NCBI GenBank assembly: GCA_029776225.1 | Contig: JAKOTR010000011.1 | Span: 62,001-126,000 of the forward strand | Direction of reading: 5' to 3' | DNA length: 64,000 nt | DNA from: Acidobacteriota bacterium | Lineage (GTDB): Bacteria; Acidobacteriota; Terriglobia; Bryobacterales; Bryobacteraceae | Notes under the pieces: model-generated | Told to the model about the DNA's origin: nothing | The model's input: the letters and a program-made list of their open reading frames with translations, nothing else | Database searches by the model: none | In this document: positions 52,773-56,368 of the stretch, piece by piece | Layout: every line of letters starts with the position of its first letter | Numbering within the stretch: position 1 is the first letter of the stretch | Made by a program: the position numbers and the translations under genes

Positions 52773-53612
52773 ATGAATCGCAAATGGACATATTCCCTGG
52801 CTGCGCTTGCTCTCAGCCTCGCGGTCGCGGGTGCCGGCTGCGAGAAACTGAAGGCGCGCGACCAGCTTAATAAAGGCGTGCAGGCTTTCCGGAACGCGAA
52901 GTATGCCGAGGCCGTAGAGCGCTTCAAGACGGCCGTGCAACTGGACCCCACCTTTCCGGTCGCCAGGCTTTATCTGGCCACTGCTTACATGAGCCAGTAC
53001 ATCCCTGGGGCGGAATCTCCGGACAACCTGAAGATGGCCGCCGCCGCGAAGGAGAACTTCCTCAAGGTTCTCGAGCAGGATCCGCGGAATGAAGTCGCGC
53101 TGGCTTCCATGGCCTCGCTCCACTATCAGGAGGCCGGCGGCATTCAGGATCTGGACGCGAAAATGGCCAAGCTCGATGAGGCCAGGGAATGGTACCTCAA
53201 ACTGGTCGATGTCAGCCCTTCGAACAAGGAGGCTTACTACAGCCTCGGCGTGATTGCGTGGGCCAAGTGGTATCCAGCCTTCGCCGCCGCCAGGTCTAAG
53301 GCCGGCATGAAGCCGGAGGATCCCGGCCCCCTTAAGGACAAGAAGGCGCGCGAGGAACTCCGGGAGAAGTACTGGACCATGATTGAAGAGGGGCTGCAGA
53401 ACCTGAATAAGGCCCTCGAAATCGACAGCAACTACGACGAGGCAATGGCCTACATCAACCTGCTGTACCGCCAGCGGGCCGACCTTGCCGAGAACCAGAA
53501 AGACTACCAGGCCGACATCGCCGAGGCCGACAAGTGGCTGGAGAAAGCTCTCAATACCCGCAAGATGAAAGCGGGGGTGGCTTCGGCGGAATCAGCCGAG
53601 CCTGCGCAGTGA
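52773..53612 (+). CDS. TPR-containing probable lipoprotein
   Basis: 279 residues starting at ATG 52773 (AGGAG upstream). The signal peptide ends with VAGAGC, a lipobox-like site with Cys23. The mature protein is made of tetratricopeptide repeats: LNKGVQAFRNAKYAEAVERF, FPVARLYLATAYMSQYIPGA, EWYLKLVDVSPSNKEAYYSL, LNKALEIDSNYDEAMAYINL. A periplasmic scaffold next to ExbD is plausible. The stop is immediately followed by a 12-bp hairpin. Confidence 0.88.
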   Translation: MNRKWTYSLAALALSLAVAGAGCEKLKARDQLNKGVQAFRNAKYAEAVERFKTAVQLDPTFPVARLYLATAYMSQYIPGAESPDNLKMAAAAKENFLKVLEQDPRNEVALASMASLHYQEAGGIQDLDAKMAKLDEAREWYLKLVDVSPSNKEAYYSLGVIAWAKWYPAFAAARSKAGMKPEDPGPLKDKKAREELREKYWTMIEEGLQNLNKALEIDSNYDEAMAYINLLYRQRADLAENQKDYQADIAEADKWLEKALNTRKMKAGVASAESAEPAQ

Positions 53613-53618
53613 TGCTAT

Positions 53619-53648
53619 CGGAGACCGGAGATTCCGCTCCGGTCTCCG
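53619..53648 (+). terminator. 12-bp hairpin after the TPR lipoprotein gene
   Basis: CGGAGACCGGAG-ATTCCG-CTCCGGTCTCCG, a perfect 12-bp stem with a 6-nt loop, begins 6 nt after the stop codon. There is no T tract, so termination could be partial or of the non-canonical type. Confidence 0.6.
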
Positions 53649-53718
53649 TACCCGCACAGACACCCGCCACCGCTGTATCCTCAACAGATTGCGGACAGAA
53701 AGGCTTCTCTCACCCCGG

Positions 53719-53744
53719 CCGCACCTTCCGGTGCGGAGTATAAT
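53719..53744 (+). promoter_or_regulatory. rel/spoT promoter region with adjacent palindrome
   Basis: TATAAT, a perfect -10 element, is at 53739-53744. The perfect 7-bp inverted repeat CCGCACC-TTCC-GGTGCGG (53719-53736) occupies the spacer and -35 position, where no good -35 hexamer is seen, so a repressor or activator may bind there. Confidence 0.5.
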
Positions 53745-53752
53745 GGAAATCA

Positions 53753-53779
53753 GGCGGCGCTCAGAGGCCGCCTTTTTTT
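53753..53779 (+). terminator. terminator-like hairpin abutting the rel/spoT start codon
   Basis: GGCGGC (53753-53758) pairs with GCCGCC (53767-53772) and is followed by seven T (53773-53779), the canonical rho-independent layout. The ATG of rel/spoT starts only 2 nt later. It may end the exb operon transcript, but any transcript from the TATAAT at 53739 would begin with it. Confidence 0.75.
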
Positions 53780-53780
53780 G

Positions 53781-56003
53781 ATGTCATCCGAACCCACAGC
53801 GGTCCCGGACACGCCGGCGACAGAGCTGGCCCCGCCTGGTCCGGCGGAGGAAGTATACCGTCGCCTTGTGGCCAAAGTGCTCGAGGTCCGGCCGAACGAA
53901 GATCTGAAGGCGATCGAGAAGGCCTACCACTACGCCGCAGAGCACCACGCCAACCAGTTCCGCGAGTCCGGCGAACCGTATGTCTGCCATCCCCTCAACG
54001 TCGCCATCATCCTCGCCGAAATGAACATGGACCTGGTCTGCATCCAGACCGGTATCCTTCACGACGTGCTCGAGGACACCGGCGCGACCTACGACGACCT
54101 CCGCCAGAACTTCGGCGACGACGTGGCCCGGACCGTTGACGGCGTCACCAAGCTGAGCAAGCTCAAGTTTTACGACCGGGAGGAACGGCAGGCCGAAAGC
54201 GTCCGCAAGATGCTGCTGGCCATGGTGGACGACGTGCGCGTGGTCATCGTCAAGCTGGCCGACCGCCTGCACAACATGCGCACCCTCGGCGTCCTTTCCC
54301 GGGAACGGCAGATGCGCGTCTCCCAGGAGACGCTCGACATCTACGCCCCCATCGCCCACCGGCTCGGGATGGGAAAGATCCGCGGCGAACTCGAGGACCT
54401 CGCCTTCAGCTACCTGGAGCCTGAAGCCTACGCCGAGATCACGGCCGCCCTCGAATCGAAGCGCCGCGCCACGGCGGATTTCCTCAAGCAGATCCGGGAC
54501 AAGGTGGAAGTCGTGCTCCGGCGGGAAGGCATTCCCGCCACCATCGAAGGCCGGGTCAAGCGCGCCTACTCGATCCACCAAAAGATGAAGCGGCAGAAGA
54601 TCGGCATCGACCAGGTCTACGATGTGCTCGCCGTCCGCATCATCACCGACAGCATTCGCAACTGCTATGCCGCGCTCGGCGTGATTCACAACGAGTGGCG
54701 GCCGATTCCCGGACGCATCAAGGACTTCATCGCCATCCCGCGGCCGAATCTCTATCAGTCCCTGCACACCTCCGTAATGGGGCCGGGCGGCCAGCCGTTT
54801 GAGGTTCAGATCCGGACCGAGGAGATGCACCGGATCGCCGAACAGGGCATCGCCGCGCACTGGAAGTATAAGGAGGGCCGCAAAGACGACGGGCACGAGG
54901 ACCAGCGCGTGGCCTGGCTGCGGCAACTGCTCGAGTGGATTCAGGAAACGCGCGACCCCGGCGAGTTCATGTCCACGCTCAAAGTGGACCTGTACCGCGA
55001 GGAGGTCTACACGTTCACGCCCCGCGGCAAGGTGATCGTGCTGCCGCGCGACGCAACGCCCATCGATTTCGCCTACGCCATCCACACGGCGGTCGGGCAC
55101 AGTTGCGTCGGCGCTAAGGTGAACGGCCGCATCGTACCGCTCAAGTACACGCTGCGCAACGGCGACGTGGTCGAAATCCTGACCCAGCCGGGGCACATGC
55201 CCTCGAAGGACTGGCTCGCGCTGGTGAAAACGTCGCGGGCGCGAAACAAGATCAAGGCCGTCATCAACGCCTCCGAGCGCGCCAAGGCGATCGAGATCGG
55301 GCAGAAGTACCTGGAGAAGGAGGCGCGCCGCCTCGGCGTGTCGCTTGCCAGAGTCAACAGGGCGGACATCGAGCGGGTGGCCGCCGAGTATGGCTTCGCG
55401 AAGATCGAGGACTTGCACGCCGCGCTCGGCTACGGCAAGTTTTCGCCGCGCAAGATTCTGCACAAGCTTTCGCCCGACGCGGCCGCGGCGGAACCGGAGC
55501 CTTCACCGAAACCGCAGGCGCCGGCCACCACCACCGCCACGCCTCCTGCGGCCGTGCCGGGCGATCTGGTGATCCGCGTCACGGGCATGGACGACCTGCT
55601 GGTATACCGCGCCAAGTGCTGCAACCCGATCCGCGGAGAGGCCATCGTCGGCTACGTGACGCGCGGGAAGGGCGTCGCCGTGCACTCGACCACCTGCCCC
55701 AACGTCCAGAACCTGATGTATGAGGTCGAGCGCAAGATCGACGTCGAGTGGGCGCGAAGCTCCAACGAGCCGTTCCCGGTGAAGTACGTCATCCGCACCA
55801 ACGACCGGCCCGGGATGCTGAGCGAGCTCACCGCAGTGTTATTTCACGAGAACAGCAACATCCGAAGCCTCGAGGCAAAGAGCACGGAGCGTGAGGGCGC
55901 CGTGATCGAAATGACTGTCGAGGTGCGCGACAAGAAGCAGCTCGAGCGCATCGTCTCCGCGATGCGGCGGATTCCCGGAATCCGCGACATCGAGCGTCAC
56001 TGA
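53781..56003 (+). CDS. rel: bifunctional (p)ppGpp synthetase/hydrolase (RelA/SpoT homologue)
   Basis: 740-residue long RSH alarmone enzyme. The N-terminal HD hydrolase domain is intact (CHPLNVAIILAE near 70, ILHDVLEDTGATYDD near 93), so ppGpp can be degraded; the synthetase domain follows with GRVKRAYSIHQKMKRQKIG, ITDSIRNCYAALGVIH and PRPNLYQSLHTSVMG near 325. TGS (VYTFTPRGKVIVLPRDATP) starts near 410 and a C-terminal ACT domain near 665. A proline/alanine-rich linker precedes the AKCCNPIRGEAIVGYV zinc-finger-like region. ATG 53781 directly follows a terminator-like hairpin and has no ribosome-binding site. Confidence 0.95.
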   Translation: MSSEPTAVPDTPATELAPPGPAEEVYRRLVAKVLEVRPNEDLKAIEKAYHYAAEHHANQFRESGEPYVCHPLNVAIILAEMNMDLVCIQTGILHDVLEDTGATYDDLRQNFGDDVARTVDGVTKLSKLKFYDREERQAESVRKMLLAMVDDVRVVIVKLADRLHNMRTLGVLSRERQMRVSQETLDIYAPIAHRLGMGKIRGELEDLAFSYLEPEAYAEITAALESKRRATADFLKQIRDKVEVVLRREGIPATIEGRVKRAYSIHQKMKRQKIGIDQVYDVLAVRIITDSIRNCYAALGVIHNEWRPIPGRIKDFIAIPRPNLYQSLHTSVMGPGGQPFEVQIRTEEMHRIAEQGIAAHWKYKEGRKDDGHEDQRVAWLRQLLEWIQETRDPGEFMSTLKVDLYREEVYTFTPRGKVIVLPRDATPIDFAYAIHTAVGHSCVGAKVNGRIVPLKYTLRNGDVVEILTQPGHMPSKDWLALVKTSRARNKIKAVINASERAKAIEIGQKYLEKEARRLGVSLARVNRADIERVAAEYGFAKIEDLHAALGYGKFSPRKILHKLSPDAAAAEPEPSPKPQAPATTTATPPAAVPGDLVIRVTGMDDLLVYRAKCCNPIRGEAIVGYVTRGKGVAVHSTTCPNVQNLMYEVERKIDVEWARSSNEPFPVKYVIRTNDRPGMLSELTAVLFHENSNIRSLEAKSTEREGAVIEMTVEVRDKKQLERIVSAMRRIPGIRDIERH

Positions 56004-56005
56004 TC

Positions 56006-56368
56006 ATGTTTGAATTCCGTTTGAATCCTCAAGCGCTCGATCCAGAGCACATCGCAATCGCCAAGTCCAAGGGCGTGAAGATCGATTGGAGGGACGGCCA
56101 CCACAGCGAATACGACTTGAAGTATTTGCGCGAAAACTGCCCGTGCGCATCGTGCTCGGGAGCACACGGCACGCCCTCGCTGAAGGAAAAGGAGGAGGGG
56201 CCGTTCCCGCTATACAAGCCCGCGCCGAAGATCGTTTCGGTCGAGCCCGTGGGCAACTACGCCGTCCGCATCGTCTGGAACGACGGCCACTCGACCGGGA
56301 TCTACTCCTACGAGCATTTGCGCCTCATCTGTCCGTGCGAGGAGTGCCGGAAGCTCGCCGGCACATAG
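56006..56368 (+). CDS. DUF971 domain protein
   Basis: 120-residue protein of the DUF971/GBBH-like family, named after the N-terminal domain of gamma-butyrobetaine hydroxylase. Features: IDWRDGHHSEYDLKYLREN, a cysteine-bearing CPCASC near residue 45 and CPCEEC near 110, likely metal ligands, and IVWNDGHSTGIYSYEHLR. In bacteria the stand-alone domain often occurs near Fe-S and Mrp/ApbC proteins; its role is not settled. It starts 2 nt after the rel stop. Confidence 0.92.
   Translation: MFEFRLNPQALDPEHIAIAKSKGVKIDWRDGHHSEYDLKYLRENCPCASCSGAHGTPSLKEKEEGPFPLYKPAPKIVSVEPVGNYAVRIVWNDGHSTGIYSYEHLRLICPCEECRKLAGT

Follow-up and report, generated by a model that had tools for sequence, protein, structure and literature searches.

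Organisation of the rel Locus

The analysed window is a stretch of 64,000 nucleotides from an Acidobacteriota bacterium of the family Bryobacteraceae (contig JAKOTR010000011.1, positions 62,001 to 126,000), and all coordinates given here are positions within it. Upstream of rel lie tonB, exbB, two exbD genes and a gene for a TPR-repeat protein. The features of the region are the following:

52773..53612, forward strand: TPR-repeat gene (putative lipoprotein; Pfam TPR_11, E 1e-15), the last gene of the tonB-exbB-exbD-exbD-TPR cluster
53619..53648, forward strand: 12-bp hairpin just 3' of the TPR stop codon, without a U run (−26.9 kcal/mol, z −6.1)
53719..53736, forward strand: palindrome CCGCACC-TTCC-GGTGCGG, lying largely between the −10 and −35 positions; not conserved
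53739..53744, forward strand: −10 box TATAAT, probable rel promoter without a −35 consensus; kept in congeners
53752, forward strand: predicted transcription start, an A preceded by C, 8 nt past the −10 box and at the base of the hairpin
53752..53773, forward strand: intrinsic-terminator-like hairpin AGGCGGC-8 nt-GCCGCCT
53773..53779, forward strand: run of seven T behind the hairpin
53781..56003, forward strand: rel/spoT, encoding a long Rel protein with HD, RelA_SpoT, TGS, RIS and ACT domains (Pfam)

The TPR gene ends with TGA at 53610–53612, and the hairpin that follows at 53619–53648 is a possible 3' end stem of its mRNA. Further downstream, GGAAATC separates TATAAT from a stem in which A-GGCGGC (53752–53758) pairs with GCCGCC-T (53767–53773) around an 8-nt loop, giving 7 bp, six of them GC. 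The TATAAT box, the GGCGGC/GCCGCC stem, the seven T and the rel ATG are all present as the first-pass annotation of this DNA had described, and the ATG (53781–53783) does adjoin the T run, at a distance not of 2 nt but of a single G. Its statement that the gene has no ribosome-binding site was borne out as well, no strong one being found before ATG 53781. A small gene with a GBBH-like_N domain (56006–56368) starts 3 nt past the rel stop codon and is probably cotranscribed with rel.

The hairpin at 53752–53773 has a fold energy of −14.4 kcal/mol, compared with −7.9 ± 2.2 in shuffled sequences (z −3.0), and its GC-rich stem is directly followed by the T run, as in intrinsic (Rho-independent) terminators. 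It ranks first among the terminator-like sites between 51000 and 57000, which are not in overall excess there (6 observed, 5.1 expected). Of the two elements of a sigma70-type promoter, the −10 box is perfect and the −35 box is absent: the corresponding position (about 53716–53721) reads CCGGCC, not TTGACA, and a promoter scan detected no −10/−35 pair, so that any promoter activity would have to come from the −10 box by itself. Likewise, no −35 enrichment was seen at the other TATAAT boxes that precede genes in the window's genome. The palindrome that had been placed at the expected −35 site is real; however, it covers mostly the spacer and is not conserved in the congeners, and a role as operator found no support.

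A search of the rel leader against Rfam gave no match near the gathering score, and neither an antiterminator fold nor a leader peptide nor a ligand- or protein-responsive switch site was found in the leader, which would be about 29 nt long with a single stem. A 12-codon ORF at 53743–53781 (MEIRRRSEAAFF), which begins at ATG 53743, spans the hairpin and has a stop codon overlapping the rel ATG, was considered as a leader peptide and rejected, since it is not kept in leaders L031, L032 and L002.

Conservation of the Composite in Related rel Leaders

Leaders of rel were gathered from the whole genomes of relatives, mostly metagenome assemblies, and from named contigs, and near-identical ones were removed, leaving 192. 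Leaders were classified as type I when a −10 box (TATAAT or a near variant) was followed within 0–8 nt by a stem containing five or more GC pairs, in most cases with T-rich sequence behind it. This composite was present in 34 of the 192 non-redundant leaders, compared with 0.8 ± 0.9 in dinucleotide shuffles (maximum 3 in 40 sets) and 3 on the antisense strand. The −10 box ends 0–8 nt before the stem in all 34, though about 50–60 positions were available. At least five T occur in the 9 nt past the stem in 28 leaders and fewer in the other six; in some, such as L011 and L022, a strong hairpin stands without a T run. The match to the −35 consensus in type I leaders (mean 2.4 of 6 positions) is like that of shuffled sequence (2.6).

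Twenty of the type I leaders belong to the window's own family (f1), one to family f2, 11 to f3, which is in the same order, and two to f8, which is in the same class as the window and outside its order. This four-family spread is unaffected by kinship among the counted leaders. One type I leader (L119, contig DYJN01000018.1) comes from a record titled Arcobacter sp., whose rel is Bryobacteraceae-like and preceded by a TPR gene; the record name is probably wrong.

Within the window's genus, the comparison of leaders that the first-pass annotation had proposed, with absence of the hairpin from close relatives as the outcome that would speak against it, found TATAAT and the hairpin in the window and in both congeners, all three sharing TATAATGG and AGGCGGC, while the preceding 100 nt align poorly. 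At a greater distance, TATAAT is invariant in ten aligned f3 and f8 leaders in which the stem changes with compensation. In this alignment 99.1% of cells are paired and 9 of 12 pairs have two-sided changes, a covariation likewise unaffected by kinship; the covariation score of 0.71 compares with 0.32 in shuffles, was reached by none of 500 of them, and fell to 0.05–0.26 in slid controls. Three of the 13 f3 and f8 leaders (L039, L040 and L050) were omitted here, MAFFT having put their 5' arm one column off.

Leaders L005, L108 and L113 keep the −10 box; the composite was not detected in them, and rel is still present. L108 and L113 retain TATAAT with an ATG some 40 nt further on, and no complementary hairpin was found in the interval.

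The rest of the genome was sampled by scanning 452 kb of the window's genome and 400 kb each of genomes G047 and G182 (1.25 Mb). Among 606 upstream regions, with 71 terminator-like hairpins, the composite occurred only at rel of the window; G047 and G182 each have it at the rel gene of their own (leaders L048/L289 and L181, respectively), outside the sampled stretch. The composite as a general style of these genomes was rejected, since the scans found no other case. Both the count of 34 in 192 leaders, against 0.8 in shuffles, and the occurrence at rel only among the upstream regions sampled place the composite beyond chance.

Association with the TPR Gene and Other Promoter Placements

The TPR gene stands directly upstream of rel in all 34 type I leaders. 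Type I occurs in 34 of 125 leaders with the TPR gene and in 0 of 67 without it (Fisher 1.3e-7, a value that overstates independence, as related leaders were counted separately and only near-identical ones removed). The hairpin thus goes with the upstream gene and not with rel, whereas an attenuator would be expected to travel with the gene that it regulates.

Other leaders show different arrangements. In 28 leaders, designated type II, the rel −10 box comes after a terminator-like hairpin, and rel looks leaderless in many of them. A −10 box 4–9 nt before an in-frame start codon was found in 62 of 158 non-type-I leaders and in only 2 of the 34 type I leaders, which suggests that the −10 box beside the hairpin replaces a leaderless promoter; in the window it ends 36 nt before the ATG, outside the leaderless range. 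Leaders L013, L016, L019, L020, L024, L033, L037 and others have TACAAT or TATAAT 5–8 nt before GTG or ATG, and many Bryobacterales appear to have a leaderless rel. Most leaderless relatives have their start codon 5–9 nt past the −10 box. Leader L036 has both arrangements, a hairpin preceded by the −10-like TAAAACT and a second −10 box beside the start codon. On these sequence comparisons, the simplest reading would make the hairpin the terminator of the exbB-exbD-exbD-TPR unit, with the rel promoter standing on either side of it.

A further variant was seen in a clade comprising L074, L085, L087, L092, L093, L095 and L107, where an inverted repeat, e.g., GGCCGGCTG ... CAGCCGGCC, places one arm 5' of the rel −10 box and its partner across the first codons of rel. 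The sole basis for this fold-back is compensating differences between species. Read-through RNA alone would contain both arms and may hide the start codon, which rel's own RNA would not, and the clade may thus represent insulation of rel by another route.

Predicted Start Sites and Stem Geometry

The start at 53752 was predicted from the pyrimidine–purine pattern 6–8 nt past the −10 box and from the spacing between −10 box and start codon in leaderless relatives. Position 8 past the −10 box is a purine in 33 of the 34 type I leaders, usually with a pyrimidine before it. If transcription starts 7–9 nt past the −10 box, the transcript would begin inside the 5' arm, with the remaining stem set off from the T run, in 26–29 of the 34 leaders. 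Predicted rel starts 7–8 nt past the −10 box would leave only 5–8 of the 34 hairpins flush with the U run, versus all 34 in read-through RNA, and would weaken the mean hairpin ΔG from −21.7 in the read-through RNA to −14.4 or −12.6. Judging by this geometry, in most relatives incoming transcripts should stop at the hairpin and rel's own transcripts should pass.

The window is an exception: with a gap of 8 and a predicted start at A 53752, outside the arm's interior, the whole stem would stay in the rel transcript. The earlier suggestion, a leader made up entirely of the terminator in transcripts from TATAAT, therefore agrees with the predicted start in the window's genus. The full stem would also be flush with the T-rich run in the predicted transcripts of L002, L031 and L102, and in part in that of L032.

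Interpretation and Alternative Explanations

The arrangement, its conservation and covariation, the link to the TPR gene and the rarity elsewhere are observed features of these genomes; the start site, termination and read-through we infer from sequence. We consider it the best explanation, with a probability of about 0.55, that the hairpin and its seven T terminate the upstream operon and that TATAAT is the rel promoter pressed against the 5' side of this terminator. Polymerase arriving from the TPR gene would make the whole hairpin and mostly halt just before the rel ATG, and this termination of incoming transcription would insulate rel from its neighbours. For rel itself, TATAAT would be the promoter in use, and its transcripts would begin at or within the hairpin's 5' arm. 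Such a start would, in most relatives, drop the outer stem pairs, and the rel RNA, having no flush stem at the U run, would run through. In the window's genus it would lie at the base of the complete stem, giving a rel leader of about 29 nt that consists of the hairpin, U7 and AUG, with no SD sequence, and some rel transcripts would probably be released at the U run as very short RNAs.

Several observations weigh against this explanation. The window's own genus does not have the escape geometry, the promoter is inferred from a −10 box with no −35 match, and fewer than five T follow the stem in 6 of the 34 type I leaders. A strong hairpin, without a U run, follows the TPR stop codon in the window, and the TPR mRNA could end there. 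In addition, many TPR-linked relatives have a terminator before the rel promoter, or none that was detected.

A possible, though doubtful, alternative is a genus-level attenuator of rel, in which the complete hairpin would end most transcripts from TATAAT as RNAs of about 28 nt and rel would be expressed by read-through, perhaps in response to a signal. The hairpin does lie between the inferred promoter and the rel ATG, no −10 box was recognised between hairpin and ATG, and the complete stem by the T-rich run described above for the window, L002, L031, L102 and partly L032 speaks for this reading; the same order of elements at Escherichia coli greA gives only about one-third read-through (PMC6829880). 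However, no antiterminator fold, conserved leader peptide or conserved sensor sequence accompanies the hairpin, rel persists in L005, L108 and L113, where the −10 box stays without a detected composite, and the geometry would break the hairpin in most relatives. The link to the TPR gene, together with starts inside the 5' arm in most relatives, argues for termination of the upstream operon rather than for an evolved attenuator. Of the first-pass proposal that alarmone synthesis is attenuated here, the full stem in the window's genus remains in its favour, while the TPR link (34 of 125 versus 0 of 67) and the start geometry of the relatives speak against it. For this genus it is plausible that some rel transcripts end early, as at greA/GraL; for signal-regulated attenuation, the checks of the leader for folds, leader peptides and Rfam matches provided no positive evidence.

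It is improbable that the hairpin serves as a 5'-terminal stem-loop that stabilises the rel mRNA, its paired or nearly paired first nucleotide hindering 5'-end-dependent decay and the unstructured U run acting as a ribosome landing site at the AUG. The predicted type I starts at or within the 5' arm would indeed place the mRNA end in or beside the stem, an SD-like motif ahead of a candidate start is missing from 24 of the 34 type I leaders, and the hairpins of L011 and L022 are strong without a T run; yet the hairpin occurs only beside the TPR gene, and the T-rich run, which stabilisation does not need, is kept in 28 of 34.

One could also hypothesise a start-site-gated terminator, in which the exact start nucleotide in the 5' arm decides between termination and escape, and nucleotide pools or (p)ppGpp set the expression of rel. 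We regard this as unlikely; if true, rel control would need neither a regulatory protein nor a ligand-binding RNA.

Polymerase retained after intrinsic termination can diffuse on DNA and re-initiate at nearby promoters in vitro (PMC6978380). Under a further reading, which this precedent and the 0–8 nt spacing of −10 box and terminator stem throughout type I favour, polymerase leaving the TPR operon could move back along the DNA and initiate again at rel, so that rel would be coupled to the upstream flux; this seems very improbable to us, as leaderless promoters elsewhere serve the sister lineages. Finally, it is highly improbable that an A/T hexamer and a terminator adjoin by chance and that the true rel promoter lies elsewhere, as the first-pass annotation had allowed: there is no −35 consensus and TATAAT is present at other places in the window's genome, but 34 composites in 192 leaders against 0.8 expected, a TATAAT that stays invariant in ten f3 and f8 leaders while the stem covaries, and the absence of the composite from the other sampled upstream regions contradict it.

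Comparison with Known Systems

The E. coli greA leader, which yields GraL, has an intrinsic terminator in its 5' UTR, tens of nucleotides past the promoter, with about one-third read-through and terminated RNAs of 37–59 nt, and, as with rel, the gene product bears on RNA polymerase and global control (PMC6829880). At greA, 18 nt precede the hairpin and the AUG (+150) lies about 90 nt past the terminator (PMC6829880), whereas at rel the predicted start is the first base of the hairpin and the U run leads straight into the AUG. The rel terminator also differs in going with an upstream co-directional gene. The short terminated RNAs and the production of full-length mRNA by read-through only are known for GraL and would be possible at rel; feedback by the gene product is a known feature of GraL and not of rel.

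In IS10 and IS50, transcription from the element's own promoter begins within an inverted repeat, and the blocking hairpin is formed by read-through RNA only. A corresponding logic is proposed here for most of the type I relatives as well as the fold-back clade. These are transposons with a block of translation, whereas rel is a housekeeping gene with mainly a terminator, and the window's genus, with its predicted start at the stem base, does not share the start-inside-repeat geometry.

At pyrC and pyrD, a hairpin at the extreme 5' end forms depending on the exact start nucleotide, and translation is controlled by pyrimidine nucleotides. The rel leaders resemble them in having a hairpin at the extreme 5' end that would depend on the start nucleotide, and differ in that the switch belongs to pyrC and pyrD; start-site switching at these genes in enterobacteria is cited in PMC5730371.

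The ordinary intergenic order, terminator then promoter, is represented by the type II sister lineages with the same TPR and rel genes; in type I the promoter precedes the terminator instead of following it. A literature search for promoters inside terminators, with most subscription journals outside its coverage, gave no match.

Biological Significance

The composite represents a conserved overlap of an operon terminator with the promoter of the next gene, at a gene that controls (p)ppGpp, in the Acidobacteriota, a large and little-studied soil phylum, and it was not seen at the other genes sampled. If the inferred starts are right, the overlap would stop incoming transcription without stopping rel's own; it predicts a rel transcription start at or inside the 5' arm of the hairpin. 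In the species represented by the window and in many of its relatives, the overlap probably keeps rel separate from the transcription of its neighbours, and in the window species it may also shorten part of rel's own messages.
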